A stretch of DNA of 64,000 bases from Streptomyces sp. NL15-2K (GTDB lineage: Bacteria > Actinomycetota > Actinomycetes > Streptomycetales > Streptomycetaceae): contig NZ_CP130630.1 in the NCBI RefSeq assembly GCF_030551255.1, positions 1,958,501-2,022,500 of the forward strand, written 5' to 3'. Every line of letters begins with the position of its first letter. Within the stretch, counting starts at the first letter, position 1. Both the position numbers and the translations under genes were made by a program. This document shows, in pieces, positions 9,973 through 23,420 of the stretch. Below the pieces are notes generated by a model. It saw only the letters and a program-made list of their open reading frames with translations, did not search any database and was not told where the DNA came from.

Positions 9973-10211
9973 CTAGGGCCTGTTGCGAAAGTGGCGTCGT
10001 TCGCCCGAAGGGCGGACCGCGCGGCGTCCGGTGCGTGCTCTGGGGGTCCCCCGGCCGAAGGCTGGGGGGACTGCCGCCCGGAAGTCCTCGTACTGGGCGT
10101 ACTCGGGCTTTCGGGCGGTGCGGCGAGTGGGGGCACCTCCCACGCCCTAAAGGCAGTGGGGGAGCGTGCCGGGCGTCGCGCGGCAGGCGCCACTTTCGCG
10201 ACAGGCCCTAG
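9973..10211. repeat. CTAG-bounded foldback element, copy 1
   Basis: A 239-bp element whose 24-bp ends are inverted repeats with one mismatch (left CTAGGGCCTGTTGCGAAAGT, right its complement). It has no coding capacity and could fold along much of its length. Related copies lie at 19344-19492 and 23242-23420. This copy is longest because two smaller palindromic units are nested inside: GGGGGTCCCCC...GGGGGGA near 10043, and GTGGGGGCACCTCCCAC... near 10130. It lies between an exporter gene and the AraC gene, whose TAG stop is in the right terminal CTAG. It resembles a MITE. Confidence 0.8.
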
Positions 10212-11179
10212 GCCTGGGCGTCATCCCGGATCTGCCGTACGAGGTGGGTCTTCGACGCCCGGCGGGAGCGGAAGTCGCCGGGGGTCATGTCGAACTCCTT
10301 GCGGAACGCGAGGTGGAATCCGACCTGGCTGCGGTAGCCGATGCGTTGCGCGATGTCGTGCTGCGGCACGGAGGTGTCCGCCAGCAGTCGTCTGGCCTCC
10401 TGCAGGCGGCGCACCGTCAGATGCCGCATGGGCGGCTCGCCCACCAGTTCCCGGAACATCTGCGAGAACGTCGAGCGGGACATGCCTGCCTCACGGGACA
10501 GGGACTCCACCGTCCAGGGCTCGGCGTAGGAGCCGTGGATCGCCATCAGCGCCTTGCTGATGCCCGGGTGGTGCAGCGCGCTCAGCGCGGGTGACTCCTC
10601 CGCCAGTTGCTCCATGGCGATCCGCAGGGAGAGCACGAACACGGTCTCGAAGGCCCGCAGTGTCACGAGCCGGGAGCCGGGAGCCGTACGCCCGATCTCG
10701 GAGGGCAGGGAGTCCAGGGTGCGCAGCAGCAGTGGCTCGTCCTCCAGCATGTGGCGCCGCAGGACGATGATCCGGGGCAGGGCGTTGTAGAGCCCCGGTT
10801 CGCCGATGGCGCTGTAGTGCAGGCTCGCGCAGAGCATGCGTGTGCGGTACGGCGGTGTCCCGACCCTGACGACGCCGGACTCGCCGGGGCGGCAGTGCGG
10901 CACCAGGGCGGACAGCGGTGTCGCCTGTACGCCGTGCTCGGCGGCGAAGGTGCGGGCGGTGCCGTGCGGGAAGATCGCCAGGTCGCCCTCGTGCAGTTCC
11001 ACGGGTTTGGGATCGTCGCCGAAGGTTATGGCACAGGAGTTGTTGAGCATGTAATGAACAATTGCGCAATTGTCGTCGTGGCCCTTGACTCCCCAGGTTC
11101 CACCTGCCTCCCACATGCTGTGAAAGATGTCGGTGAGCCACAGCGGGCGCAGCAGCTCGCTCAGCACGTCGTCATGCAC
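10208..11179 (-). CDS. AraC-family regulator with cupin sensor domain
   Basis: A 323-residue regulator with an N-terminal cupin-type ligand domain (about 10-190, including FGDDPKPVELHEGDLAIFPH) and a C-terminal pair of AraC helix-turn-helix motifs (about 215-300; SLSREAGMSRSTFSQMFREL and IAQRIGYRSQVGFHLAFRK). It is divergent from the PhzS-like monooxygenase and probably controls the aromatic cluster. The final codons GCC TAG overlap the terminal CTAG of foldback copy 1, so the repeat supplies the stop codon. The gene may therefore have been slightly shortened or lengthened by that insertion. Confidence 0.92.
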   Translation of the reverse strand: MHDDVLSELLRPLWLTDIFHSMWEAGGTWGVKGHDDNCAIVHYMLNNSCAITFGDDPKPVELHEGDLAIFPHGTARTFAAEHGVQATPLSALVPHCRPGESGVVRVGTPPYRTRMLCASLHYSAIGEPGLYNALPRIIVLRRHMLEDEPLLLRTLDSLPSEIGRTAPGSRLVTLRAFETVFVLSLRIAMEQLAEESPALSALHHPGISKALMAIHGSYAEPWTVESLSREAGMSRSTFSQMFRELVGEPPMRHLTVRRLQEARRLLADTSVPQHDIAQRIGYRSQVGFHLAFRKEFDMTPGDFRSRRASKTHLVRQIRDDAQA

Positions 11180-11304
11180 GGACGATCCTTAAAGCGATTC
11201 GGCTCATGATTAATTGATCGTAGCCATCGCTCCCAGAACGATGAGAGGCGAAGCCGGGCTCATTGGCCGGTTTACGGGGTTGAAGTTCTGGGGGGACGCG
11301 TTCC

Positions 11305-12603
11305 ATGAGGTTTCTGATTGCCGGTGCCGGCATCGGCGGCCTGACCGCCGCGCTGAGTCTTCATTCCGTCGGAATGCGCGACGTGCGAGTCCTGGAGGCC
11401 GTGCCGGAGATTCGCCCTCTGGGAGCCGGGGTGAATCTGCTGCCCAACGCGGTGCGCGAGCTGGCCGCCCTGGAACTGACCGAAAACCTCGCCGACCTGG
11501 GTGCCGATCTGACCGAACTCGGCTACTACAACCACCTCGGACAGGAGATCTGGCGCGAACCCCGCGGCCGGGCGAGCGGCTCCCGGTGGCCTCAACTGGC
11601 GCTGCACCGCGGTGCCCTGCAGACGGCCCTGGCCGACAGCGTCCGCGCCCGCCTGGGGAACACGGCGATCACCACCGACGCGCGTGTCACCGGCTTCACG
11701 CCCCTGCCCGGCGGGGGCGTCGAGGTGAGTGTGGCTCACCGCGCCGGCGATCGGCCGACGGAGCGGATCCGGGCGGACGTGCTGGTCGGGGCCGACGGGC
11801 TGCGGTCCGCCGTACGGCAGGCCCTGTATCCGCAGGAAGGGGAGCCGCGCTTCAACGGCACCGCCGTGTGGCGGGGAATGACGCGCAGCGCGCCCTTTCA
11901 CGGCGGTCGCGCGATGGTCGTCATGAGGGACGGCCGCTGGAAGGCGGTCGTCTACCCGCTGGCCGTACGCCCGGATGCGGAGGGCCTGGTTCCGGTGAAC
12001 TGGGCGGTATCCCGCGCCGTACCGGAGGAACCCCTGTCCCTGGACGCCGCGCCCGTTGACGCCGACGACGGCTTCCCCGCGGCGGTGGCCGGCTGGCGGT
12101 GCGGGGATCTGCGGATGGCCGCTCTCGTGGCGGACTCCGAAGCGGTCGCGTCCTTCCCCATGCTCGACCGGGACCCCGTGCCCCGCTGGTCGTTCGGCGC
12201 CGTGACCCTGCTCGGGGACGCCGCGCACGCCATGGCCCCGATGGGTTCCAACGCGACGACCCAGGCGGTGCTGGACGCACGTAGCCTCGCCCATGCCCTG
12301 GCCACCCACGACGACCCGGTCGCGGCCCTCGCGGCGTACGACCGGGACCGCCGACCCCGGATGAACCGGCTGCAGCTGCTCAACCGGGCCAAGGGGCCGG
12401 AGGTCGTGATCGATCTGGTCCACGAGCGGGCCCCGGAGGGCTTCGGACGGGTGGAGGACGTGGTCCCCACCGACCGGCTGGCCCAGGTGGCCCGCGCCTA
12501 TGCCCGCGCCGCCGGCTTCGACGTCGCGTCCGTCAACGCCCCATCGCCGTACGGCCGTCCGATCCGGCCGCACCGGCCGCGCCCCGCCGTGCGCGAGCGC
12601 TGA
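11305..12603 (+). CDS. FAD-dependent monooxygenase, PhzS-like
   Basis: A 432-residue single-component flavin monooxygenase that would hydroxylate an aromatic substrate with NAD(P)H and O2. The N-terminal dinucleotide-binding motif is [18 protein letters not shown]. The mid-protein motif [16 protein letters not shown] carries the DG dipeptide, and [19 protein letters not shown] binds the FAD ribityl chain. It resembles PhzS and 3-hydroxybenzoate-type hydroxylases. ATG at 11305 follows GGGGGGA. It is the first gene of a rightward set (HpaB-like, MFS, NmrA) facing the AraC regulator. The substrate is probably a chorismate-derived aromatic acid, inferred from context. Confidence 0.9.
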
Positions 12604-12697
12604 GGCGAACCGCCCGAGCGGACCCGCTCGGCGCCGGCCCGCCCCCTCCGTTCCACTTCCCACCGCCCATCAACAGCACCCTGTGTCAGGAGAGAGC

Positions 12698-14196
12698 ATG
12701 ACCCGCAGCGGCCAGGAATACCTCGAATCACTACGCGACGGCCGTGCCGTCTGGCTCGACGGTGAGCTGGTCAAGGACGTCACGGAGCACCCCGCCTTCC
12801 GCAACACGGCCCGCTCGATGCGCACCTCTACGACATGGCGCGGGACGCGGAGCTGCGGGACGTGCTGACGGTGCGCCCCGAGGGGCAGGACCGGGCGGTG
12901 CTGCGTGCCTACCACGTGCCGCGCACGCAGGCCGAACTGGTCGAGCGGCGCAAGGCGTTCAAGACCTGGTCCGAGGCCAGCTTCGGCTTCCTGGGCAGGT
13001 CGCCCGACTACATGGCCGCGGGCATCGCGGGCTTCGTCTCGACGCCGGAGATCTTCGCCGGGGAGACCTTCGACGGGCGCGACAACCTGGCCGCGTACTA
13101 CCGGCGCATGACGGAGGGCGACCTCTACCAGTCGTTCACCATCACCAACCCCCAGATCGACCGCACCAGGGCGGCCGGCGAGCAGGAGGAGGACGACCTG
13201 TACGTGCGGGTCGTCAAGGAGCGCGACGACGGCATCGTGGTGCGCGGCGCCAAGATGATCGGCACCGGCGCGGTGTTCGGTGACGAGATCATCGTCGGCA
13301 CCATCGAGCCGTTGCAGCGCCAGGACGTCGAGTACGCGCTGTGCTTCTCCGTGCCCCTCGACACCCCGGGGCTGAAGTTCATCTCCCGGACCTCCTACGA
13401 AGGCCAGGCGCGCAGCGTCTTCGACAACCCGTTGTCCGCCCGCTTCGACGAGAACGACGCGCTGCTCGTCTGCGACGACGTCTTCGTGCCCTGGGAGCGG
13501 GTGCTGACCTACCGGGACGTCGACACCACCTTCCGGATGTGGTGGTTCACGCCCGCCTACAACAACTTCGTCCACCAGGCGGCCACCCGCTTCTGGACCA
13601 AGCTGGAGTTCCTCACCGGGCTCGCGATCCTGGTCACCCGGGCGAACAACACCTATGACCTGCCGCCCGTTCAGATGCAGATCGGCCGGCTCATCGGGTG
13701 GCTCAACATCGCCAAGTCGATGGTGCTGGCGGCCGAGACGACGTACGAGCGGGTGGGAGGCGAGGGCGGTGCCGTGCACATCAACCGGGAGATCGCCTCG
13801 GCGCACCGGGCCATGGCCGGTGACCTCTATCCGAAGGTGCTCGCCGAGATCAAGATGCTGGCGGGCGGCGGTCTCATCCAGCTCCCGGCCTCCGGCTACG
13901 ACCTGAAGCACCCCGAACTCGGTCCGCTGGTGGCCAAGTACGTGCGCTCGCCCGGCACCCCGGCGGAGCAGCGGATCAAGCTGCTCAAGCTCGCCTGGGA
14001 CGCGCTGGGTTCGGAGTTCGCCGCACGGCACGAGCAGTACGAGCGCTTCTACCACGGCGCTCCCCACGTCTACCTGCCCGGCATCGTGCGCGACGGCAAC
14101 CCGGACCTGCTGGCCGCCTTCACCCAGTCGTGCCTGGACGGGTACCAGCTGGACGAGCTGCCGGGCGGTACGGGGGGTTTCGATGGCGGGCGCTGA
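12698..14196 (+). pseudogene. HpaB-type 4-hydroxyphenylacetate 3-hydroxylase family gene with frameshift
   Basis: This encodes the large component of a two-component FADH2-dependent aromatic ortho-hydroxylase. ATG at 12698 has a good AGGAGAG site and reads [20 protein letters not shown]. After about 40 codons the frame fails at 12817-12821 and the family sequence resumes in the +1-shifted frame as [13 protein letters not shown], continuing to 14196. Restoring one base (TCGAT-GCG to TCGATCGCG) would give a continuous protein of about 499 residues, the usual length. The rest is well conserved (for example YEGQARSVFDNPLSARFDEN), so the change is recent or a base error. The stop overlaps the MFS start, implying translational coupling. 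Confidence 0.8.
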
Positions 14197-15622
14197 CCGC
14201 CGGCGAGCGCTGGCCCTGCTCGCCTGCACCCAGTTCGTCCTGATCCTCGACACCTCGATCATCAACGTGGCGGCGCCGTCCATCGGCGAGAGCCTGGACA
14301 TCTCGCCCGCCGCACTGTCCTGGGTGGCCAACGCCTACCTCGTCTCCTTCGGCGGGCTGCTGCTGCTCAGCGGTCGTGCCGCCGATCTGCTGGGGCAGCG
14401 CAGGGTGTTCGTGGCCGGTCTGGGCGTCCTCGCGGCCGCATCCCTGCTGGGTGCCCTCTCCGACAGTGCCGCCCTGCTGATCACCGCCCGCGCGGTGCAG
14501 GGCGTCGGGGCGGCCATGGCCGCGGCGGCGGCGTTCGCCCTGATCCTCACGCTGTTCGAGGACGGCCCGGAACGGCACCGGGCGCTGGGCGTGTTCGCCG
14601 CGATGGCCGGTGCCGGTGGCGCCGCGGGCACGGTGCTCGGCGGCGTGCTCACCAGCTGGCTGGGCTGGGAGTCGACCTTCGCGCTGAACGTGGTGGCCGG
14701 TATCGCCCTGGTCCTGCCCGTGCCGCGGCTGCTGCCGCCCGGGACGTCCGGCGGGCGCGAGCGCGGCTTCGACGTGCCCGGCGCGGTGGCGGTCACCGCC
14801 GGTCTGGGGCTGCTGGCCTACGCCGTGGTCAACGCGGGCGAGGCCGGCTGGAGTTCCACGCCGACGCTGGTCACCGGGGCCGCCGCCGTCGTACTGCTCG
14901 CGGCGTTCGTCCTGGTCGAACGCAGGGTGGCGCACCCACTGGTCCCGCTCGCCGTGCTGGGCAGGCCGACGCTGCGGCTGGCCAACATCCTGGCCGCGCT
15001 GTGGCAGATGTCGCTGTTCCCGATGTTCTTCCTGGTGAGCCTGTACCTGCAGGCGGTGCTCGGGTACGAACCGGTGCTCGGCGGCCTCGCCCTGCTGCCG
15101 CTGTGTCTGGTCGTCATCACGGTCGCCTCCACCGCGGACCGGCTGATCGGCCGGTTCGGCCTGCGCGCGGTGATGGGCGCCGGGTTCTTGCTGGTGGCCG
15201 TCGGCATGGGCTGGCAGTCGCTGCTTTCGGCCGACGGCTCCTTCGTGGCGGACGTCCTGCCGCCGAGCCTCGTGCTGGGCGTCGCGCTGCCGCTGGTCTC
15301 CATCACGGCGAACGTCGCGGCCACTCTCGACACCCGCGAGGAGGAGGCCGGCCTCGCCTCCGGACTGGTCAACACCAGCTTGCAGTTCGGCTCCGTCCTC
15401 GGTCTCGCCGTCCTGTCCGGAGTGGCCGCCGCACGCACCGACGCCTCCTCCGCGGCGCGCGACGTGGCGCTCACCGACGGCTTCAGCACGGCCTTCCTGG
15501 TCGGGGCCGTGCCGGCCCTGGTCGCGCTGCTGCTCACCCCCCGGCTGCGGCTGCCCGCACCGGACGCCCCGGCACCGCCGGAGGCGAGCACCGCCGTCGA
15601 GCACCGGCGCGCCGTGCCCTGA
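14183..15622 (+). CDS. DHA2-family MFS drug/metabolite exporter
   Basis: A 479-residue protein with about 14 membrane helices, the DHA2 layout of proton-driven efflux pumps. Motifs include FVLILDTSIINVAAPSIGESL in helix 1, SGRAADLLGQRRVF (motif A) between helices 2 and 3, and ARAVQGVGAAMAAAAA in helix 4. It starts 14 bases inside the end of the HpaB-like gene, so the two are probably translated together. In the aromatic cluster it would export the product and give self-resistance. No sign of disruption is seen. Confidence 0.92.
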   Translation: MAGADRRRALALLACTQFVLILDTSIINVAAPSIGESLDISPAALSWVANAYLVSFGGLLLLSGRAADLLGQRRVFVAGLGVLAAASLLGALSDSAALLITARAVQGVGAAMAAAAAFALILTLFEDGPERHRALGVFAAMAGAGGAAGTVLGGVLTSWLGWESTFALNVVAGIALVLPVPRLLPPGTSGGRERGFDVPGAVAVTAGLGLLAYAVVNAGEAGWSSTPTLVTGAAAVVLLAAFVLVERRVAHPLVPLAVLGRPTLRLANILAALWQMSLFPMFFLVSLYLQAVLGYEPVLGGLALLPLCLVVITVASTADRLIGRFGLRAVMGAGFLLVAVGMGWQSLLSADGSFVADVLPPSLVLGVALPLVSITANVAATLDTREEEAGLASGLVNTSLQFGSVLGLAVLSGVAAARTDASSAARDVALTDGFSTAFLVGAVPALVALLLTPRLRLPAPDAPAPPEASTAVEHRRAVP

Positions 15623-15694
15623 TCGCGCCCGCCCGGCCCGCCCGGTCCGGGGACCGTGCGCCCACTGAATGAACACCACGAAGAAAGGCACGAC

Positions 15695-16615
15695 ATGACA
15701 CAAGATCACCGCAAGCACGTCCTCGTGACCGGAGCCAACGGTTTCCAGGGCGGTGCGGTGGCCCGGCTGCTGGCCGGCCAGGGGCACGAGGTCCGCGGCC
15801 TCGTCCGGGACGAGGCGAAGGCCGCGTCGGCCTCAGCGGCCGGGGTCACGCCGGTGCGCGGCGACCTGGGCAGCATCGAGGACCTGCGCGCCGCCTTCCG
15901 GGGCGTCACGCACGCGGTCGTCGTGATGCCTCTGGAGTACGACCCCGAGACGGTGGCCGGGTACGCCCGCAACATCGCCGAGGCGGCCCGTGAGGCCGGG
16001 GTGCGACGGCTGGTCTACAACGTCAACACCCCGGTTCCCGACGAGACCACGCCGTACGCCGGTTTCGAGACGCGCCGCCTGGCGGAGGAGGTGCTGCGGG
16101 CCGGTGAGGTGCCCGTGGTCGTGGTCAGGCCGCCGGTCTACCTGGAAAACCTTTTCAGCCCCTGGAACGGACCCGCGATCGTCGACGACGGTGTCCTCGC
16201 CTACCCGCTGCCCGCCGAGCAGCGCGTGGCCTGGATGTCGCACGACGACCTCGCGCGTGTGGTGTCCCGGGCCCTGGACGACGACGTGCCGGCCGGGCAG
16301 GTACTGAACGTCGGCGGCGCCGACGTGCTCACCGGTCCGGAGCTGGCGGCCGCGTTCGGGCAGGCCCTGGGCCGTGAGATCCGGTATGTCCCGCTGGAGG
16401 TCACGCAGTTCGAGCAGGGGCTCGCCCAGATGCTCGGCACCGAGGCCGCGGCCGGTGTCGCGGGGATCTACCACTACGCCGGCACGGGCCGGGCGGGCGA
16501 CCTGCTCGCTCCGTCGCCCGCCGCCGTGGAGAGCGCTCTGGGTGTACGGCTCACGCCGGTGATCGAGTGGGTCAAGGCACAGCCCTGGGAACACTGGGCC
16601 CGGTCCGCCGGGTGA
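15695..16615 (+). CDS. NmrA-like NAD(P)-binding protein
   Basis: A 306-residue atypical short-chain dehydrogenase of the NmrA/TMR type. The N-terminal nucleotide-binding motif is VLVTGANGFQGGAVARLLA. The usual YxxxK catalytic pair is not evident, as in NmrA redox-sensor proteins, although some relatives reduce quinones or isoflavones. ATG at 15695 follows AAAGG, and the longer upstream frame lacks a ribosome binding site. It follows the exporter by 72 bases on the same strand and is probably cotranscribed. It could be a tailoring reductase or a redox-sensing regulator of the cluster. Confidence 0.85.
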   Translation: MTQDHRKHVLVTGANGFQGGAVARLLAGQGHEVRGLVRDEAKAASASAAGVTPVRGDLGSIEDLRAAFRGVTHAVVVMPLEYDPETVAGYARNIAEAAREAGVRRLVYNVNTPVPDETTPYAGFETRRLAEEVLRAGEVPVVVVRPPVYLENLFSPWNGPAIVDDGVLAYPLPAEQRVAWMSHDDLARVVSRALDDDVPAGQVLNVGGADVLTGPELAAAFGQALGREIRYVPLEVTQFEQGLAQMLGTEAAAGVAGIYHYAGTGRAGDLLAPSPAAVESALGVRLTPVIEWVKAQPWEHWARSAG

Positions 16616-16689
16616 CCCACGGCCGTGACCGGGGCGCGCGCTGACAGGGCCGCGCCCCGGCAGGCGGCACGTCGGTCGGACAACGTACG

Positions 16690-17723
16690 GGGGGGAAGAG
16701 ACGCGCTGCGGGTTCTCCTCGTCGTCCGAGCCGCGCGGGGTGGTACCCGCGATGGGGCGCATGGTGATCTCGCCGTCCTCGATGCGGAAGAACAGCTCGG
16801 GGCTCGCTCCGATCAGCAAGGTGTCGCCGCGCGGCGCGAGTACATGTACGGCGACGGGTTGCGGGCCCGCAGCCGCCGGTACACGGCCTCGGGCGCCAGC
16901 TCGGTGCGGACGTCTACGCGGTGACCGATCTGGATCTGGTAGATGTCCCCGACCCGGATGTGCTCCAGGCACCGGTCCGCCCAGCGCAGAAACGTCGCCC
17001 GGTCCACGCTGTCGTGCACCGACCGCGGCCGGGGCGCCTCGGGCACGGGTGCCACGTCCTCCCGCCCGGCCGCCCGCCGGGCGATCTCCAGCAGCCCGGG
17101 ATCGTGCCGTGCGACGAACTCCGCGCTGTCGGCGCGCAGTTCACTGACCGTGCCGTCGGTGCGGTCGTACCAAACGGTGTGCCGGAAGACGGTGAGCGTG
17201 ATGTCGGGGCCCCGCGGCGGCTTGGTCCGCTCGCCCAGGTCCTCCATGTGCCAGTTCGACTCGTAGGCCAGGCTGGTCAGGAACCCGAAGGACCAGCTCT
17301 GGGGGGACAGGTCCGTCCGCACCTCGAACAGGTCGCTCCGGGCTGCTTCCAGGAGCGCCCACAACTGCTCCGGCCGCTCGGCGCTCAGCTCGGCGAGGAG
17401 CCTCGGCTCCCGGTCGGCGCGGGGGTGGCCGCCCGGCGCAGTCCGAGGTCCTCGGCGTGTCCCAGCAGGGCTCGGACGAGCGCCGGTTCGCCCGTGAGGC
17501 GGACGGTCACCCCGCGCGTGCCCGCGATGACCCGGATGTCCAGCAGGCGCCCGCAGCCGACGACCGCCCGGTCGGGATCCCGTCCGGTGCCGGAGGCGTT
17601 CTCAAGGAGGAAGACGTCGTCGACCGGGTGGGTGCGGCGCAGCTCTTCGTAGAGGTCGAGCGGGTCGTGCGCCGGCAGCCCGGACGCCGTGACGCGTACG
17701 TGGATCGGTGCGCTGCGCGCCAT
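16690..17723 (-). pseudogene. Truncated, frameshifted TrpE/PabB-like chorismate enzyme
   Basis: Reading leftward from ATG 17723 (ribosome binding site GAGGGGAA), the sequence resembles component I of anthranilate or aminodeoxychorismate synthase. Three successive frames are needed: MARSAPIHV to about 17427; then PRADREPRLLAEL through NPSPYMY to about 16840; then APRGDTLLIGASPELFFRIE to IAGTTPRG near 16720. Each join is explained by a missing base; the first lies in a C run. After IAGTTPRG the sequence ends, so the C-terminal catalytic half is gone. The gene is divergent from DAHP synthase and would have used its product's downstream chorismate. Confidence 0.8.
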
Positions 17724-17991
17724 CGTGTGATTCCCCTCGGTTCTCGCACGGTTCACAATTCCTCGCCGGCTCCGCCGAATTGGGTTCGGCGGCCGTGCCG
17801 GGGAGGTACCGATGGACAGCGAATCAGAGGCGACACGAGAGCGGCCAGACCAATTCGGGTGCGCGGAGCCGGCCCAATTCCGTAAGAGCTTGACGGCAAA
17901 AGGGCTGAGGAATTGGAGTGAGATGCCATGGCTGAGGGAGGGCGATGTGGAACGCTCCGGAATTGACCGAAGCGCCGTCGGAGGAGCCGGA

Positions 17992-19347
17992 ATGACGTCG
18001 GAAAGCGCACCCCGTTCGCACGAGGCCCAGGGGGGCGGCCCGGCGCCGGCCGACCAGCAGCCGGACTGGCCCGACCCGGTCCGGCTGCGCGACGTCACCG
18101 ACCAACTGGCGCAGGCGGCACCCCTGGTGTTCGCCGCGGAGTGCGACGCGCTGCGCTCCCGGCTCGCCGCGGTGGCGAAGGGGGAGGCGCTGCTGCTGCA
18201 GGGCGGCGACTGCGCGGAGACGTTCGCCGGTGCCACGCAGGAGTCCGTCGACGGCAAGCTGCGCACGCTGTTGCAGATGGCGGTCGTTCTGACACACGGG
18301 GCGTCGATGCCGGTCGTCAAGGTGGGCCGGATGGCGGGCCAGTTCGCCAAGCCACGCTCCCAGCCGTTCGAGCGGCGGGGCGACACGACACTGCCGGTGT
18401 ACCGGGGGGGGGACGCGGTGAACGGCCCGGGATTCACGGTGCGGGAGCGCACCCCCGATCCGGACCGGCTGCTGCGCATGTACGAGGCGTCGGCGACGAC
18501 GCTGAACCTGGTGCGGGCGCTGACCGCCGGGGGCTTCGCCGACCTGGCCCGGGTGCACGAGTGGAACCGGGCCTTCGTCGCCGCCTCGCCCAGCGGCCGG
18601 CGCTACGAGCGGCTGGCCGACGAGATCGAGCGGGCGCCGGCCTTTCTGCGCGCGTGCGGGGGCCGGACCGGCGCGCTGACCACCGCCGAGTTCTTCGTGA
18701 GCCACGAGGGCCTGTTGCTCGACTACGAGCGGGCATTGACGCGCACCGATGCGGCGACCGGGAGGACGTACGCCACCAGCGGCCATCTGCTGTGGATCGG
18801 CGAGCGGACCCGTCGGCCGGACGGGCCGCACGTCGAGTACTTCGCCAAGATCAGCAACCCCCTCGCCGTCAAGCTGGGGCCCGGTGCGACCGCGGACACC
18901 GTACTGCGGTACGTGGACCTCCTCGACCCCGACCGCGAGCCCGGGCGGCTCACGTTCGTCGTGCGGATGGGGGCGGAGCGGGTCCGCGACCTGCTGCCCC
19001 TGCTGGTGGAGAAGGTCGCTTCGGAGGAGGCACCCGTCTGCTGGGTCAGCGACCCGATGCACGGGAACACCTTCGTCACCGAGAGCGGCCACAAGACCCG
19101 GCACTTCGACGCCGTCGCCGAAGAACTGCGGGGCTTCGTGGAGGTGCACCGCGCCCTGGGCACGCACCCCGGGGGCGTCCACCTGGAGCTCACCGGCGAC
19201 GACGTCACGGAGTGCCTGGGCGGGAGCAGTGCCGTGGCCAGGGAAACGCTGCCGCAACGCTACGAAACGGCGTGCGACCCGCGCCTGAACCACTCCCAGG
19301 CCCTTGACCTGGCGTTCCTGCTCGCCGAGTGGTACCGGAACCACTAG
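17992..19347 (+). CDS. Class II DAHP synthase (plant type), pathway-specific
   Basis: A 451-residue enzyme that condenses phosphoenolpyruvate and erythrose 4-phosphate, the first step to chorismate. The metal-binding Cys74 lies in LLLQGGDCAETFAG, and WVSDPMHGNTFV is the conserved C-terminal motif. ATG at 17992 is preceded by GGAGGA; an in-frame upstream extension lacks a site. The usual YRGDAVN appears here as YRGGDAVN, with one extra Gly codon in a run of eight G residues. A second, cluster-linked DAHP synthase usually boosts shikimate flux for an aromatic natural product. The stop TAG lies in the CTAG that begins foldback copy 2. Confidence 0.93.
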   Translation: MTSESAPRSHEAQGGGPAPADQQPDWPDPVRLRDVTDQLAQAAPLVFAAECDALRSRLAAVAKGEALLLQGGDCAETFAGATQESVDGKLRTLLQMAVVLTHGASMPVVKVGRMAGQFAKPRSQPFERRGDTTLPVYRGGDAVNGPGFTVRERTPDPDRLLRMYEASATTLNLVRALTAGGFADLARVHEWNRAFVAASPSGRRYERLADEIERAPAFLRACGGRTGALTTAEFFVSHEGLLLDYERALTRTDAATGRTYATSGHLLWIGERTRRPDGPHVEYFAKISNPLAVKLGPGATADTVLRYVDLLDPDREPGRLTFVVRMGAERVRDLLPLLVEKVASEEAPVCWVSDPMHGNTFVTESGHKTRHFDAVAEELRGFVEVHRALGTHPGGVHLELTGDDVTECLGGSSAVARETLPQRYETACDPRLNHSQALDLAFLLAEWYRNH

Positions 19348-19492
19348 GGCCTGTGTCGAAAGTGGCGCCTGCCGGGCGGCGCCCGGCACGAACTCTCGCC
19401 GCACCGGGCGAAAGCCCAAGTAGATCCAGTACGAGGGCTTCCGCCCGGCCCGCCCTTCGGGCGGACGACGCCACTTTCGACGCAGGCCCTAG
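19344..19492. repeat. CTAG-bounded foldback element, copy 2
   Basis: A 149-bp element with inverted ends CTAGGGCCTGTGTCGAAAGT / complement. The inner part is shorter than in the other copies but keeps complementary CGGGCGAAAGCCC and GTACGAGGGCTT-like blocks. The left CTAG contains the DAHP synthase stop codon. The right CTAG is the insertion target of the adjoining IS481-family element. Before that insertion it would also have held the stop codon of the convergent MocR gene. Confidence 0.8.
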
Positions 19493-19493
19493 A

Positions 19494-20558
19494 TGTTCTG
19501 TCCACGGAGGTTGGTGACAGCGATCACTGACGTGTGGTCTTGAAATGGGTGAGGGCCTTCTGGCTCGGTGTGGATTGCGACATCTACGCCGGACGACAGA
19601 AAGGCCCTCGTGCCCCACCGTAATGCACCCCTGACCGAGACCGGACGCCTGCGCCTGGCCCGCTGCGTGGTCGAGGACGGCTGGACCCTGCGCCGGGCCG
19701 CTGAGCGATTCCAAGTCTCGCCAACCACCGCACAGCGATGGGCCGACCGCTACCGCCGGCTCGGCGAGCCTGGCATGGCCGACCACTCCAGCCGCCCCCG
19801 CACCAGCCCGCGACGGACCCCGACCCGTACCGAGCGCAGGATCATCAAAGTCCGCGTACTGCGCAGGTGGGGGCCAGCACGGATCGCAGGCCTGCTCCGC
19901 CTGGTGCCGTCCACCGTGCACCGGGTGCTGACCCGCTACGGCCTGGCCCGCCTGACCCACCTCGACCGGGCCACTGGGCGCGTCATCCGTCGCTACGAAC
20001 GTGCCAAGCCCGGCGAACTGGTCCACGTCGACATCAAGAAGCTCGGCAACATCCCCGACGGCGGCGGCCACAAGACCCTCGGACGCCAGGCGGGCCGCAA
20101 GACCCGGTCCGGCGCCGGCTACAGCTACCTCCACAACGCCGTCGACGACCACTCCCGCCTGGCCTACAGCGAGATCCACGCAGACGAGAAGAAGGAGACC
20201 GCTGTCGGCTTCTGGAGTCGCGCCCAGGCGTACTTCGCCACCTGCGGGATCACCGTCGAACGCGTCCTGACCGACAACGGCTCCTGCTACAAATCCCACC
20301 TGTGGCGAGACGCCCTGGCAGCAGCCGGGATCACGCACAAGCGAACCCGCGCCTACCGGCCGCAGACGAACGGCAAGGTCGAACGCTTCAACCGCACCCT
20401 GCTCGACGAATGGGCCTACGCCCGCCCCTACCGATCAGAGCAGGAACGACGCGACGCCTTCCCCAGCTGGCTGCACACCTACAATCACCACCGCGGACAC
20501 ACCGCGCTCAAGGGCCAACCACCCGCCAGCCGCGTCCCTAACCTCTCAGGGCAATACA
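19494..20558 (+). mobile_element. IS481-family insertion sequence
   Basis: A 1,065-bp element beginning TGT and ending ACA, with imperfect terminal inverted repeats of about 28 bp (left TGTTCTGTCCACGGAGGTTG; right end complement TGTATTGCCCTGAGAGGTTA). Both flanks carry the 6-bp duplication CCTAGA (19488-19493 and 20559-20564), which fits the known NCTAGN target preference of IS481-type elements. It carries one transposase gene and looks intact, hence recently active. Confidence 0.9.
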
Positions 20559-20563
20559 CCTAG
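19610..20563 (+). CDS. IS481-family transposase
   Basis: A 317-residue DDE transposase. The N-terminal helix-turn-helix (WTLRRAAERFQVSPTTAQRW) binds the element ends. The catalytic core has Asp141 in VHVDIKKLG, Asp222 in VLTDNGSCY and Glu258 in TNGKVERFNRT. GTG at 19610 follows AAAGG and matches the family start (PHRNAPLTETGRLRLARC). The last Thr codon is completed, and the TAG stop supplied, by the target duplication rather than by the element itself. The gene is complete and probably functional. Confidence 0.93.
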   Translation: MPHRNAPLTETGRLRLARCVVEDGWTLRRAAERFQVSPTTAQRWADRYRRLGEPGMADHSSRPRTSPRRTPTRTERRIIKVRVLRRWGPARIAGLLRLVPSTVHRVLTRYGLARLTHLDRATGRVIRRYERAKPGELVHVDIKKLGNIPDGGGHKTLGRQAGRKTRSGAGYSYLHNAVDDHSRLAYSEIHADEKKETAVGFWSRAQAYFATCGITVERVLTDNGSCYKSHLWRDALAAAGITHKRTRAYRPQTNGKVERFNRTLLDEWAYARPYRSEQERRDAFPSWLHTYNHHRGHTALKGQPPASRVPNLSGQYT

Positions 20564-21891
20564 ACGTAGCTGCGAACCGGCGCCGGCCCCACCGCGGAGG
20601 CGATCGCGTCCGCCAGCGGGCCCGTCTCCTGCGCCGTCAGCGTCGAGACCGTGATCCGGATCCCGGGCGGTGCGCTCATCCGGAAGCGGGCGCCGGGGGC
20701 GACGGCCCAGCCGGCGTGCAGGAGCCGGGCGACGGCTCCGGTCTCGTCGGGTACCGGGATCCACACGTTCAGGCCCGAGCGCCCGTGGGCCTCGATGTCC
20801 CGTTCCGCGAGCGCGTCGATGAGCAGGTCCCGGCGCTCGCGGTACGCGGCGGCCACCGCCGGCGAGTCCAGCGCGCCGTCGGCCCACAGTCGTAGCACGG
20901 CCCGCTGGGTGATCCGGCTGACCCAGCCGGGCCCGAGCCGCTGCCGCCCACGTACCCGGTCGACGGTGACGGCGTCCCCGGTGAGCACGCCCAGCCGCAG
21001 GTCGGGCCCGTAGCCCTTGGCGACCGAACGCACGAAGGCCCAGGTACGGGTCTCGCCGGCCAGGGGGCGCAGGGGCAGGTCGACGATCGCGTGGCCGTGG
21101 TCGTCCTCGATCAGCAGGGTCTGCGGATGTTCTCGCAGCACGGACCGCAGGGCACGCGCGCGCGTGGCGCTCACCACGGCGCCGGTCGGGTTCTGCGCCC
21201 GGTCGGTGACGATCAGGGCGCGGGCCCCGGCCGCCAGGGCCCGCCGTACGTCGTCGGGGAGCGGCCCCTCGTCGTCGACGCGTACGGAAGCCGTGCGCAG
21301 CCCGAGCGCCGGGACGAGATCGAGGAGGCTGCCCCAGCCGGGGTCCTCCAGGGCGACCGTGTCCCCCGGTTTGAGGTGGGCCGTGAGGACCCGCTCGATC
21401 GCGTCGAGCGACCCGGAGACGACGGCGAGGGGCCCGTCCGGCACCCCGTCGGCACGCAGCTCCGCCCGGGCGATCCGCGCCAACTCCGGTTCCACGGGCG
21501 CGTCTCCGTACAGGACCGGCTCCCGGTCGCTCTGCTCGGCCGCCGCGGCGAACGCCTTCGCCAGGGGCGGCAGCAGCGCCGGATCCGGATTGCCGTTGGA
21601 CACGTCCCGCACCCCCTCGGGCACGTCCACCCGGATGTGCTCGCGCCCGGTGGTGGCCGGCTTGGGCCGCACCCGGCTGCCCCGGCGTCCGGCGGTCTCG
21701 ATGACCCCGCGCTCGCGCAGCGTGCGATAGGCGGCCGCGACGGTATTGGGATTCACGCCCAACTCGGCGGCCAACTCCCGCATGGGCGGCAGCAGTTGAC
21801 CGGGCAGCAGCTCCCCCGCCCCCACCGCCTGTTCGATGCTCGCCGAAATCTCCGCTGCGCGTCGGCCGACGATTCGATACTCTCCTAGCAC
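20560..21891 (-). CDS. MocR-type regulator (GntR wHTH plus aminotransferase domain)
   Basis: A 443-residue protein. The N-terminal GntR winged helix (about 1-75, with PPMRELAAELGVNPNTVAAA) is joined to a fold-type I aminotransferase-like domain with the PLP-lysine motif SVAKGYGPDLRLG. MocR proteins use PLP as a signal or co-factor and often control vitamin B6 or amine genes. The start is GTG at 21891. No ribosome binding site is visible, but CATAAT lies about nine bases upstream on the coding strand, suggesting leaderless mRNA. It is divergent from two FMN-barrel genes. Its TAG stop lies in the IS target duplication. Confidence 0.92.
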   Translation of the reverse strand: MLGEYRIVGRRAAEISASIEQAVGAGELLPGQLLPPMRELAAELGVNPNTVAAAYRTLRERGVIETAGRRGSRVRPKPATTGREHIRVDVPEGVRDVSNGNPDPALLPPLAKAFAAAAEQSDREPVLYGDAPVEPELARIARAELRADGVPDGPLAVVSGSLDAIERVLTAHLKPGDTVALEDPGWGSLLDLVPALGLRTASVRVDDEGPLPDDVRRALAAGARALIVTDRAQNPTGAVVSATRARALRSVLREHPQTLLIEDDHGHAIVDLPLRPLAGETRTWAFVRSVAKGYGPDLRLGVLTGDAVTVDRVRGRQRLGPGWVSRITQRAVLRLWADGALDSPAVAAAYRERRDLLIDALAERDIEAHGRSGLNVWIPVPDETGAVARLLHAGWAVAPGARFRMSAPPGIRITVSTLTAQETGPLADAIASAVGPAPVRSYV

Positions 21892-21902
21892 AAACCCAAT
21901 TA

Positions 21903-21914
21903 TGCACTAGTGCA
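21903..21914. promoter_or_regulatory. Palindromic operator between MocR and FMN-barrel gene
   Basis: The perfect 12-bp palindrome TGCACTAGTGCA lies in the 36-base spacer of the divergent pair and overlaps a CATAAT -10-like box for the MocR gene. It is a likely MocR site controlling both directions. Confidence 0.6.
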
Positions 21915-21927
21915 ATGGAGAACGCCA

Positions 21928-22608
21928 ATGCAGGGGCCCCAGCAGACGACGACGCCCGCCGCCTACACCCCCACCGACCGCACCGTGCCCACACGCTCCC
22001 CGAACCGTGCCTCGTACGACAAGGAACTGGTGCACGCGATACTCGACGAGGGCTACGTCTGCCACCTCGGCTTCGTCCGCGACGGCGCGCCGATCGTGCT
22101 GCCCACGCTCTACGGCCGGGTCGGCGAGCGGCTCTACGTGCACGGCTCGACGGGTTCGCGCCCGCTGCGGATGACGGGTCAGGCCGACCCGGGGCTCCCG
22201 GTCTGCCTGACGGTCACCCATGTCGACGCGCTGATCCTGGCCCGCTCGGCCTTCCACCACTCGATCAACTACCGGTCCGTGGTGGTGCACGGCGTCGCCC
22301 ACGACGTGACGGACCCCGAGGAGAAGCTGGCCGCTCTGGACGCGCTGGTCGACCACGTCGTACCGGGCCGCGCCCGCGACTCCCGGCCGGCCGACAAGAA
22401 GGAGCTGGCTGCCACCGCCGTGATCCGCCTCGATCTCGACGAGGTCTCCGCCAAGGCCCGCACCGGCGGCGTCAACGACGAGCCCGAGGACCTCGCCCTC
22501 CCGCACTGGGCCGGCGTCGTCCCGCTGCGCAAGGGCTACGAGACCCCCGTCGCGGACGCCGGCTTGGCCCCCGGCACGGAGGTCCCCGACTACCTCGCGG
22601 TTCTGTGA
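21928..22608 (+). CDS. Pyridoxamine 5'-phosphate oxidase family protein
   Basis: A 226-residue split-barrel flavoprotein. It has the family's N-terminal helix (ASYDKELVHAILDEGYVCHL), the strand pair GFVRDGAPIVLPTLYGRVGE, and HSINYRSVVVHGVAHDV in the core. Such proteins bind FMN, and some are oxidoreductases of unknown substrate. ATG at 21928 follows GGAG. Its stop overlaps the next gene's start (TGATG), so the pair is translationally coupled. The divergent MocR regulator suggests a link to pyridoxal metabolism, though the exact reaction cannot be read from the sequence. Confidence 0.88.
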   Translation: MQGPQQTTTPAAYTPTDRTVPTRSPNRASYDKELVHAILDEGYVCHLGFVRDGAPIVLPTLYGRVGERLYVHGSTGSRPLRMTGQADPGLPVCLTVTHVDALILARSAFHHSINYRSVVVHGVAHDVTDPEEKLAALDALVDHVVPGRARDSRPADKKELAATAVIRLDLDEVSAKARTGGVNDEPEDLALPHWAGVVPLRKGYETPVADAGLAPGTEVPDYLAVL

Positions 22609-23240
22609 TGCTGATCCATCCCTGGGACGCGCCGCACGACGACGCCGAGTGGCAAAGCTGGCTGGCCGCCCACGACTTCGGACAGCTCGCCGTCAACGGC
22701 CGGCCGGGCGAGCCGCCGTACGTCCAGCCCCTGCATTTCACCTATGACGCCGAGCACGGCGAGGTCGTCACACATCTGGCCCGACCGAACCCTCTGTGGC
22801 ACGCACTGGAGGCGAATCCGGACGTCCTGCTGAGTGTGGTCGACGACTACGTGTACGTCCCCGGCCCCTGGCAGGCCTCGCCCGACGGCCCGTCCGAACA
22901 CGGCACGCCCACGAGCCTCTACGCGGCCGTCCAACTCCGCTGCCGGGCCCGCCTCGTGGACGACCCGGCCGGGAAAGCCTCGCTTCTCAACCGACAAGTG
23001 GGCCATTTCCAGCCGGAGGGCGGCTCCGCGCGGGTGGCGGTGGGCGCGGAGCCGTACGGGCGGATGCTGTCCGGAATCCGCGGGCTACGGCTCGAAGTGG
23101 TCACGGTCCGGGCGAAGTTCAAGTACGCCAGTCACCGTCCCGAGGAGGTCCAGGACCGGATCGCGGCCGGGCTGGCGGACCGGAGCGGTCCGCGCGACGC
23201 GGCGGCACGCGAGCACCTGCTGCGCCGGCGCGGAACGTGA
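22608..23240 (+). CDS. PaiB-like FMN-binding protein
   Basis: A 210-residue protein of the FMN-binding negative regulator (PaiB) group, again a split barrel. It begins MLIHPWDAPHDDAEWQSWL and contains FGQLAVNGRPGEPPYVQPLHF, HLARPNPLWHAL and the helix HFQPEGG. PaiB proteins were described as repressors but are structurally enzymes. The ATG shares bases with the stop of the preceding flavoprotein gene. It is followed one base later by foldback copy 3. Function beyond FMN binding is unknown. Confidence 0.85.
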   Translation: MLIHPWDAPHDDAEWQSWLAAHDFGQLAVNGRPGEPPYVQPLHFTYDAEHGEVVTHLARPNPLWHALEANPDVLLSVVDDYVYVPGPWQASPDGPSEHGTPTSLYAAVQLRCRARLVDDPAGKASLLNRQVGHFQPEGGSARVAVGAEPYGRMLSGIRGLRLEVVTVRAKFKYASHRPEEVQDRIAAGLADRSGPRDAAAREHLLRRRGT

Positions 23241-23241
23241 G

Positions 23242-23420
23242 GTAGGGCCTGTTGCGAAAGTGGCGTCGTCGCCCGAAGGGCGGCCGCGCGGCGTCCGGTG
23301 CGGGCTCTCGGCGTGCCGCCCGGAAGCCCTCGTACTGGGCGTACTCGGGCTTTCGGGTGGTGCGGCGAGAGCCCGTGCCGGGCGTCGCGCGGCAGGCGCC
23401 ACTTTCGCAACAGGCCCTAG
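23242..23420. repeat. CTAG-bounded foldback element, copy 3
   Basis: A 179-bp element with ends GTAGGGCCTGTTGCGAAAGT and the complement of CTAGGGCCTGTTGCGAAAGT. The interior is nearly the same as copy 1 without its two nested palindromic units (shared blocks include CGCGCGGCGTCCGGTGCG and CGTACTGGGCGTACTCGGGC). It starts one base after the PaiB-like stop and ends 32 bases from the end of the convergent EamA gene. Confidence 0.8.

Follow-up and report, generated by a model that had tools for sequence, protein, structure and literature searches.

What moves short, gene-free palindromes through a bacterial genome, and why they should fold, is the question raised by three foldback elements (copies 1 to 3, Table 1) in Streptomyces sp. 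NL15-2K. They lie in a 64-kb stretch (the window) covering positions 1,958,501-2,022,500 of a 12.35-Mb contig (G000:C1). The elements are probably miniature inverted-repeat transposable elements (MITEs) mobilised in trans, and their movement or survival would depend on single-strand folding at the replication fork. All three were named in a preliminary description of the sequence and are genuine, far beyond chance: with as many as 3 mismatches tolerated, a 22-base pattern of the element ends is matched six times in the window, at both ends of each copy, against a mean of 0.00 in 100 shuffles. Copy 3 folds with z = -15 relative to shuffles, and copy 2, with the end variant GTGTCGAAAGTGG, is oriented opposite to copies 1 and 3. 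As described, the copies contain no gene; they are short and have no capacity to encode a transposase, and the open reading frames (ORFs) that cross them were judged by eye to be chance frames.

The elements belong to a family that is numerous in this genome. The end of the window copies (type A) has 78 matches with up to 2 mismatches in the whole genome, and a second end, type B (CTAGTGCCCCGNCAGGCAACGTT), has 147; the reversed controls gave none in either case. Copy 3 as a query matched 61 stretches, some of which are two strands or two pieces of one element (40 of 307 candidates were scored). From the fetched loci, rather than from the whole genome, 93 separate elements whose ends are paired were extracted by script; 55 have type-B, 35 type-A and 3 type-C ends. 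These elements span 52-280 bp including flanks, lack transposase coding capacity and, like the window copies, all carry terminal inverted repeats. Near-identical copies occur at unrelated, non-orthologous places, three of them with 99-100 percent identity, so that neither of the findings that would speak against mobility, a single occurrence or constantly orthologous positions, was made. The type-A end is rarer in relatives, with 1-4 matches in 7 of 12 genomes of the same genus, and was absent from 8 genomes of other genera. A phage origin was rejected, as no match was found among 50,697 phage records. A survey of open-licence literature by title and beginning of abstract yielded no paper treating these Streptomyces elements.

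The homologous loci agree with mobility. The gene adjoining copy 1 has no element within about 520 bases after its end in 3 of 3 other Streptomyces loci (96, 92 and, for a partial match, 84 percent protein identity). For the gene preceding copy 2, eight homologous loci were read; seven were informative (the eighth lies in another orientation), and in all seven the gene end is followed by about 230 bases without an element. That the repeats are static and were spread by recombination is contradicted by these loci, by the near-identical copies at unrelated places and by the defined ends and target; nothing was found in favour of this explanation, which is of negligible probability.

The guess of an IS5-like partner in the preliminary description was borne out in a Streptomyces plasmid (NZ_CP108601, L264), where type-A-like ends (2 and 1 mismatches) and CTAG flank a 2-kb unit in which a gene for an acetyltransferase accompanies an IS5-type transposase encoded in two frames (DUF4096 followed by DDE_Tnp_1). 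On a contig of a relative (L164) an A-like end precedes an IS5-type transposase; the other end was not found. These elements resemble the window copies in their type-A-like ends and CTAG flanks, present on both sides in L264 and at one end in L164, but are full-length and coding. In two Streptomyces plasmids (L262 and L263), transposases of the IS630 family that carry a DDE_3 domain have a type-B end on either side. The elements with such ends on both sides lie in plasmids of other strains, and the similarity of the type-A-like ends supports the assignment of the window copies to IS5-family transposons; an IS630 derivation does not apply to them, since their ends are type A and it is the sister family that has type B. 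The genome itself contains a degenerate IS5 whose ends are A-like (L152), two further IS5 copies whose ends are related (L130 and L131) and a 1104-bp IS5-type element whose CTAG-flanked ends share only the first bases with type A. A search of plasmids for partner transposases of end types C, D and E identified none. By eye, type-A-like ends are also followed by passenger genes, namely cupin-like (L160), P-loop-kinase-like (L166) and VOC-like (L171), with IS5-type frames nearby, or by GNAT-like genes with no transposase in view (L170).

One hairpin core is common to MITEs with IS5-type and IS630-type ends. Many type-B-ended elements match copy 3 solely over its bases 45-146, with 90-93 percent identity. 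Of 295 genomes of the genus that were sampled, 193 have a match to this core of approximately 102 bases at an expectation value (E) of up to 0.001, about 140 of them below 1e-10 (counted by eye); weak matches may be due to chance. The core is also found in plasmids of Streptomyces and Embleya. At 29 loci of other genomes (L173-L201) it lies between many different, mostly CTAG-flanked ends, and at least six unrelated end types, including those of the IS630 family, were distinguished by eye. An element of 69 bp (L068:3004-3072) has a left end of type C and a right end of type A that meet at the side hairpin; it resembles a natural end-swap chimera and suggests that exchange of ends does occur. 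The core contains some open frames, but a coding function was rejected, the variable positions falling in different frames on its two arms (determined by hand).

In the core, the ability to fold is preserved on one of the two strands only. The stem pairings of 49 distinct cores comprise 1788 Watson-Crick pairs, 446 G.T, 1 A.C and 211 others, under palindrome scoring that is symmetric for G.T and A.C. Because the cores were collected through their resemblance to copy 3, an inherited G.T pair enters the count repeatedly, and the fairer measure is the number of distinct pair states: 25 G.T against 1 A.C, or 15 against 1 (read from the table) at pairs with a Watson-Crick majority. In a set of 31 distinct cores (34 given), 98.9 percent of the stem positions pair, and five pairs are changed on both sides, compared with 0.8 in shuffles, none of 500 of which reached five; sliding the partners gave 0-3 such pairs with 32-50 percent paired. 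Of the 49 cores, 48 have a G-G mismatch, and an internal loop of two bases hardly varies. All 88 oriented elements fold better on the same strand, by a mean of 15 kcal/mol (DNA parameters), and on it the loop of the side hairpin is G-N-A in 36 of 37 matched hairpins. GNA loops are unusually stable in DNA. Strand-biased mutation in place of selection was rejected: changes seen in one copy number 13 C>T and 6 G>A, seemingly too even to yield 25 against 1 states. The strictness of this one-strand pairing implies that folding of that strand would be useful to the element.

Element orientation follows the direction of replication. With '+' denoting the folding strand on top and dnaA at 5.767 Mb, there are 34 + and 18 - elements to the left of dnaA and 8 + and 28 - to its right, so that 62/88 are concordant (Fisher 8e-5), comprising 25/33 with type-A and 35/52 with type-B ends. 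In nine other genomes with a dnaA match 60/75 elements are concordant (p = 1.6e-7): G201 10/15, G012 0/1, G007 3/3, G236 17/20, G009 5/6, G255 3/4, G180 14/17, G263 6/6 and G179 2/3. In G007 and G012 dnaA lies far from the middle and the terminus was assumed half a genome away from it; without these two, the count is 57/71. All of these p-values are rough, as the elements are related by descent. Among the youngest copies (a sibling at least 98.5 percent identical) 27/36 are concordant, and in the oldest group 16/25; in the window, copies 1 and 3 are concordant and copy 2 is discordant. The transposase genes of three insertion sequence families in the same genome showed no clear bias (concordant: IS701 type 10/23, IS5 type 13/27, IS630 type 12/19; some fragments dropped). 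Derived by hand, the favoured orientation makes the folding strand the template of leading-strand synthesis and leaves the weaker-folding strand as the lagging-strand template. The bias therefore means that copies with the folding strand on the lagging-strand template are less often seen.

The same bias would be expected if hairpins stable on the lagging-strand template blocked replication or were cut and were purged at once, folding having no role in movement. Both the placement of the weaker-folding strand on that template and the large difference in stability suit such selection on survival alone, and immediate removal of fork-blocking hairpins accounts for the bias almost equally well as excision. 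It leaves the strict pairing of the other strand unexplained, because a merely harmful hairpin should lose its pairing on both strands; for this reason survival alone is a possible explanation, but clearly a less probable one.

Several features of the core look RNA-like, namely the G.U-type pairs, the compensatory changes, and the nearly invariant G-G mismatch and internal loop. The hairpin could then be a functional RNA, e.g. a processing or decay signal, that was spread by transposases, with the one-strand constraint acting on the RNA and the replication bias secondary to gene direction. The folding strand is indeed more often antisense to flanking genes (74 vs 50 flanks, p = 0.04), but this is a weaker correlate than replication: flanking genes themselves have almost no direction bias (65 vs 59), and beside lagging-strand genes the elements still follow replication (38 vs 21 flanks). 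Gene ends abutting an element show no sense preference (13 sense vs 17 antisense), which also led to the rejection of a cis-acting terminator. Furthermore, the Rfam covariance models gave no hit over the copies up to E = 1; the single weak hit in the stretch searched is outside them (12426-12486). A role of the hairpin as RNA is possible, and the data do not tell RNA and single-stranded DNA apart; as the source of the whole pattern, such an RNA appears rather unlikely.

Orientation linked to the fork is described, in the excerpted part of the source, as a known mark of single-strand transposition (PMC5371812), and together with the GNA loop it could indicate that the core is a mobile hairpin of the HUH/Y1 kind (REP- or IS200/IS605-like), with the IS-like ends as its hosts or relics. 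However, the strand that folds here is the leading-strand template, the reverse of what the same excerpt gives for IS608 and ISDra2 (PMC5371812), and the elements have TA/CTAG flanks and inverted-repeat ends as in DDE-transposase elements, where IS200/IS605- or REP-like elements would have no terminal inverted repeats. This origin is accordingly very unlikely.

As to the target, CTAG stands at both ends of 77 of the 93 extracted elements. The preliminary description placed CTAG at the boundaries of all window copies, which holds for copies 1 and 2, while the left edge of copy 3 is GTAG (23242-23245). Of the 16 extracted elements without CTAG at both ends, five differ at one outermost base alone (GTAG, TTAG, CTAC twice, CTAA), and none of the 16 has a four-base direct repeat other than CTAG. 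For these two reasons the target duplication is most likely the TA inside a preferred CTAG. A four-base CTAG duplication as in IS701, whose copies here are also CTAG-flanked, was rejected because the one-sided variants of the outer base fit TA better; the IS701 ends shown do not resemble types A-C.

In several cases the CTAG is common to the element and a neighbour, which may be another MITE, an IS5, an IS701 or, for copy 2, an IS481-type element, and the CTAG flanks of the MITEs seem to act as landing sites. A stretch 99 percent identical to this IS481-type element abuts another MITE at G000:C1:597417-597894, and IS701-type elements of about 1.43 kb with CTAG flanks stand directly beside MITEs at five loci (L025, L026, L027, L030 and L113).

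Copies 1 and 2 each overlap the stop codon of an adjoining ORF (Table 1). Among the element boundaries, the TAG is in frame with a coding frame in 32 of 171, against 13 in the other two frames, whereas other CTAGs in the same loci are in frame in 28 of 328 cases (Fisher p = 0.001). The ratio of in-frame to other-frame cases is alike in both sets (32:13 and 28:10, p = 0.81); special targeting of stop codons was therefore rejected, and the overlap mostly reflects where CTAG occurs. In a further control on the 18 other CTAGs of the window, the 18 boundaries scored all came out as 'none'.

The family with its ends, the CTAG target, the common core, the constraint on one strand and the bias in orientation are observed; the causal link between folding, excision and orientation is inferred. 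Taken together, the MITEs are probably mobilised in trans, the window copies through IS5-type ends and the sister family through IS630-type ends, by transposases that may act on them today. In both families insertion would be at the TA within CTAG, and each new copy would have CTAG at both its edges, so that copies and other users of CTAG could pile up side by side and an element could sit on a TAG stop codon with the protein unaltered. The most probable reason for the one-strand pairing is that this strand, once exposed at the replication fork, folds and so allows the two ends to pair and be cut. Copies with this strand as the lagging-strand template would be excised or lost, while copies facing the opposite way would accumulate. 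A bolder version, held tentatively and rather improbable as it stands, is that one cassette repeatedly switched between IS5- and IS630-type transposases across Streptomyces while being selected for one-strand folding at the fork, making it a DDE system gated by a single-stranded hairpin and by replication direction.

Several results weigh against trans-mobilised MITEs dependent on folding at the fork. This genome yielded no complete autonomous element whose ends are exactly type A or type B, and none of its 23 IS630-domain loci has a type-B end within a distance of about 1.5 kb. The disfavoured orientation goes with only weakly lower stability (p = 0.08) and only weakly worse ends (p = 0.07), trends in the predicted direction that fall short of significance, and CTAG integrity does not differ between orientations (p = 0.75), so excision-driven loss is not demonstrated. 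Over whole elements of this genome A.C is not rare (16 distinct states vs 70 G.T), and changes seen in one copy also lean towards G.T (20 vs 9 changes; 22 vs 6 distinct states), for which reason selection solely through movement is not claimed. A first count of G.T against A.C (33 vs 0 among shared changes, 20 vs 9 among private ones) was discarded as proof of such selection when a fuller count (48:10 shared, 22:6 private) weakened it. Three elements end in CCAG/CTGG, which a plain TA duplication does not explain. Finally, no base-exact empty site occurs among the homologous loci read, as the intergenic DNA differs. In the CCAG...CTGG elements, both flanking TA dinucleotides appear to be altered symmetrically (to CA and TG), as though the stem extended into the flank.

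MITEs are usually regarded as passive deletion derivatives of one transposon. A core that is common to two transposase superfamilies, constrained on a single strand and oriented by replication departs from this view. It opens to testing the questions of how MITEs of bacteria come to outnumber their parent elements and why palindromes are so numerous in some bacterial genomes, and it gives annotators of Streptomyces genomes a recognisable family of hairpins added beside, and sometimes on, the stop codons of genes.

Among the systems covered by the excerpts consulted, RUP of Streptococcus pneumoniae and the Correia elements are the nearest described kind. RUP, an IS630-Spn1 MITE of 107 bp with 108 intergenic copies (PMC2229807), is likewise short, with IS630-like inverted ends and TA at the target, but is tied to one transposase family, whereas the Streptomyces core stands between IS5-type and IS630-type ends; the excerpted account of RUP mentions neither strand-specific pairing nor replication-linked orientation (PMC2229807). 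The Correia (NEMIS) elements of Neisseria share inverted ends (24 bp), a terminal TA and a long stem-loop, there present in the transcript (PMC2229807, excerpt). They belong to another genus and have other ends, while the Streptomyces elements use a CTAG target and can overlap TAG stop codons. For Tn7 (TnsE pathway) and IS200/IS605, too, a link between orientation and the replication fork is described in the part of PMC5371812 consulted. Compared with that account, the transposase chemistry differs, the MITE folding strand lies on the leading-strand template, and in Streptomyces sp. NL15-2K the transposase genes themselves are without clear bias.

Table 1. Positions (in the window unless a locus is named) of the three elements, their parts and neighbouring features
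Feature	Position	Strand	Remarks
Copy 1, 239 bp including both CTAG	9973..10211	+	G.T strand is the top strand; TA dinucleotides flank the element proper, 9976-10208
Copy 1, left terminal inverted repeat and CTAG	9973..9995	+	type A, IS5-like; end-pattern match
Copy 1, side hairpin	10002..10014	+	CGCCC-GAA-GGGCG; C-GNA-G loop on + strand
Copy 1, core hairpin	10021..10180	+	enlarged by two inserted palindromes; boundaries by eye vs copy 3
Copy 1, right terminal inverted repeat and CTAG	10189..10211	-	end-pattern match
TAG stop codon of ORF 10208-11179	10208-10210	-	in right CTAG of copy 1
Copy 2, 149 bp including both CTAG	19344..19492	-	lacks part of one arm of the core
TAG stop codon of ORF 17812-19347	19345..19347	+	inside left CTAG of copy 2
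Copy 2, side hairpin	19451..19463	-	
IS481-type element	19493..20563	+	abuts right CTAG of copy 2; limits by eye
IS481-type transposase ORF	19568-20563	+	
Second CTAG of IS481-type element	20560-20563		
Copy 3, 179 bp	23242..23420	+	GTAG left, CTAG right; element proper 23245-23417 between TA dinucleotides
Copy 3, side hairpin	23270..23282	+	CGCCC-GAA-GGGCG
Copy 3, core hairpin, 102 bp	23288..23389	+	module common with IS630-type MITEs
Plasmid unit with type-A-like ends	L264:2501-4560		acetyltransferase, IS5-type transposase; bounded on both sides

The difference between copies 1 and 3 lies, as first described, mainly in two extra palindromes of copy 1 (about 10041-10072 and 10125-10164, by eye). 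These inserts are small G-rich palindromes inside the core arms, and similar small palindrome modules, nested in one another, are present in other type-A and type-C elements of the genome.

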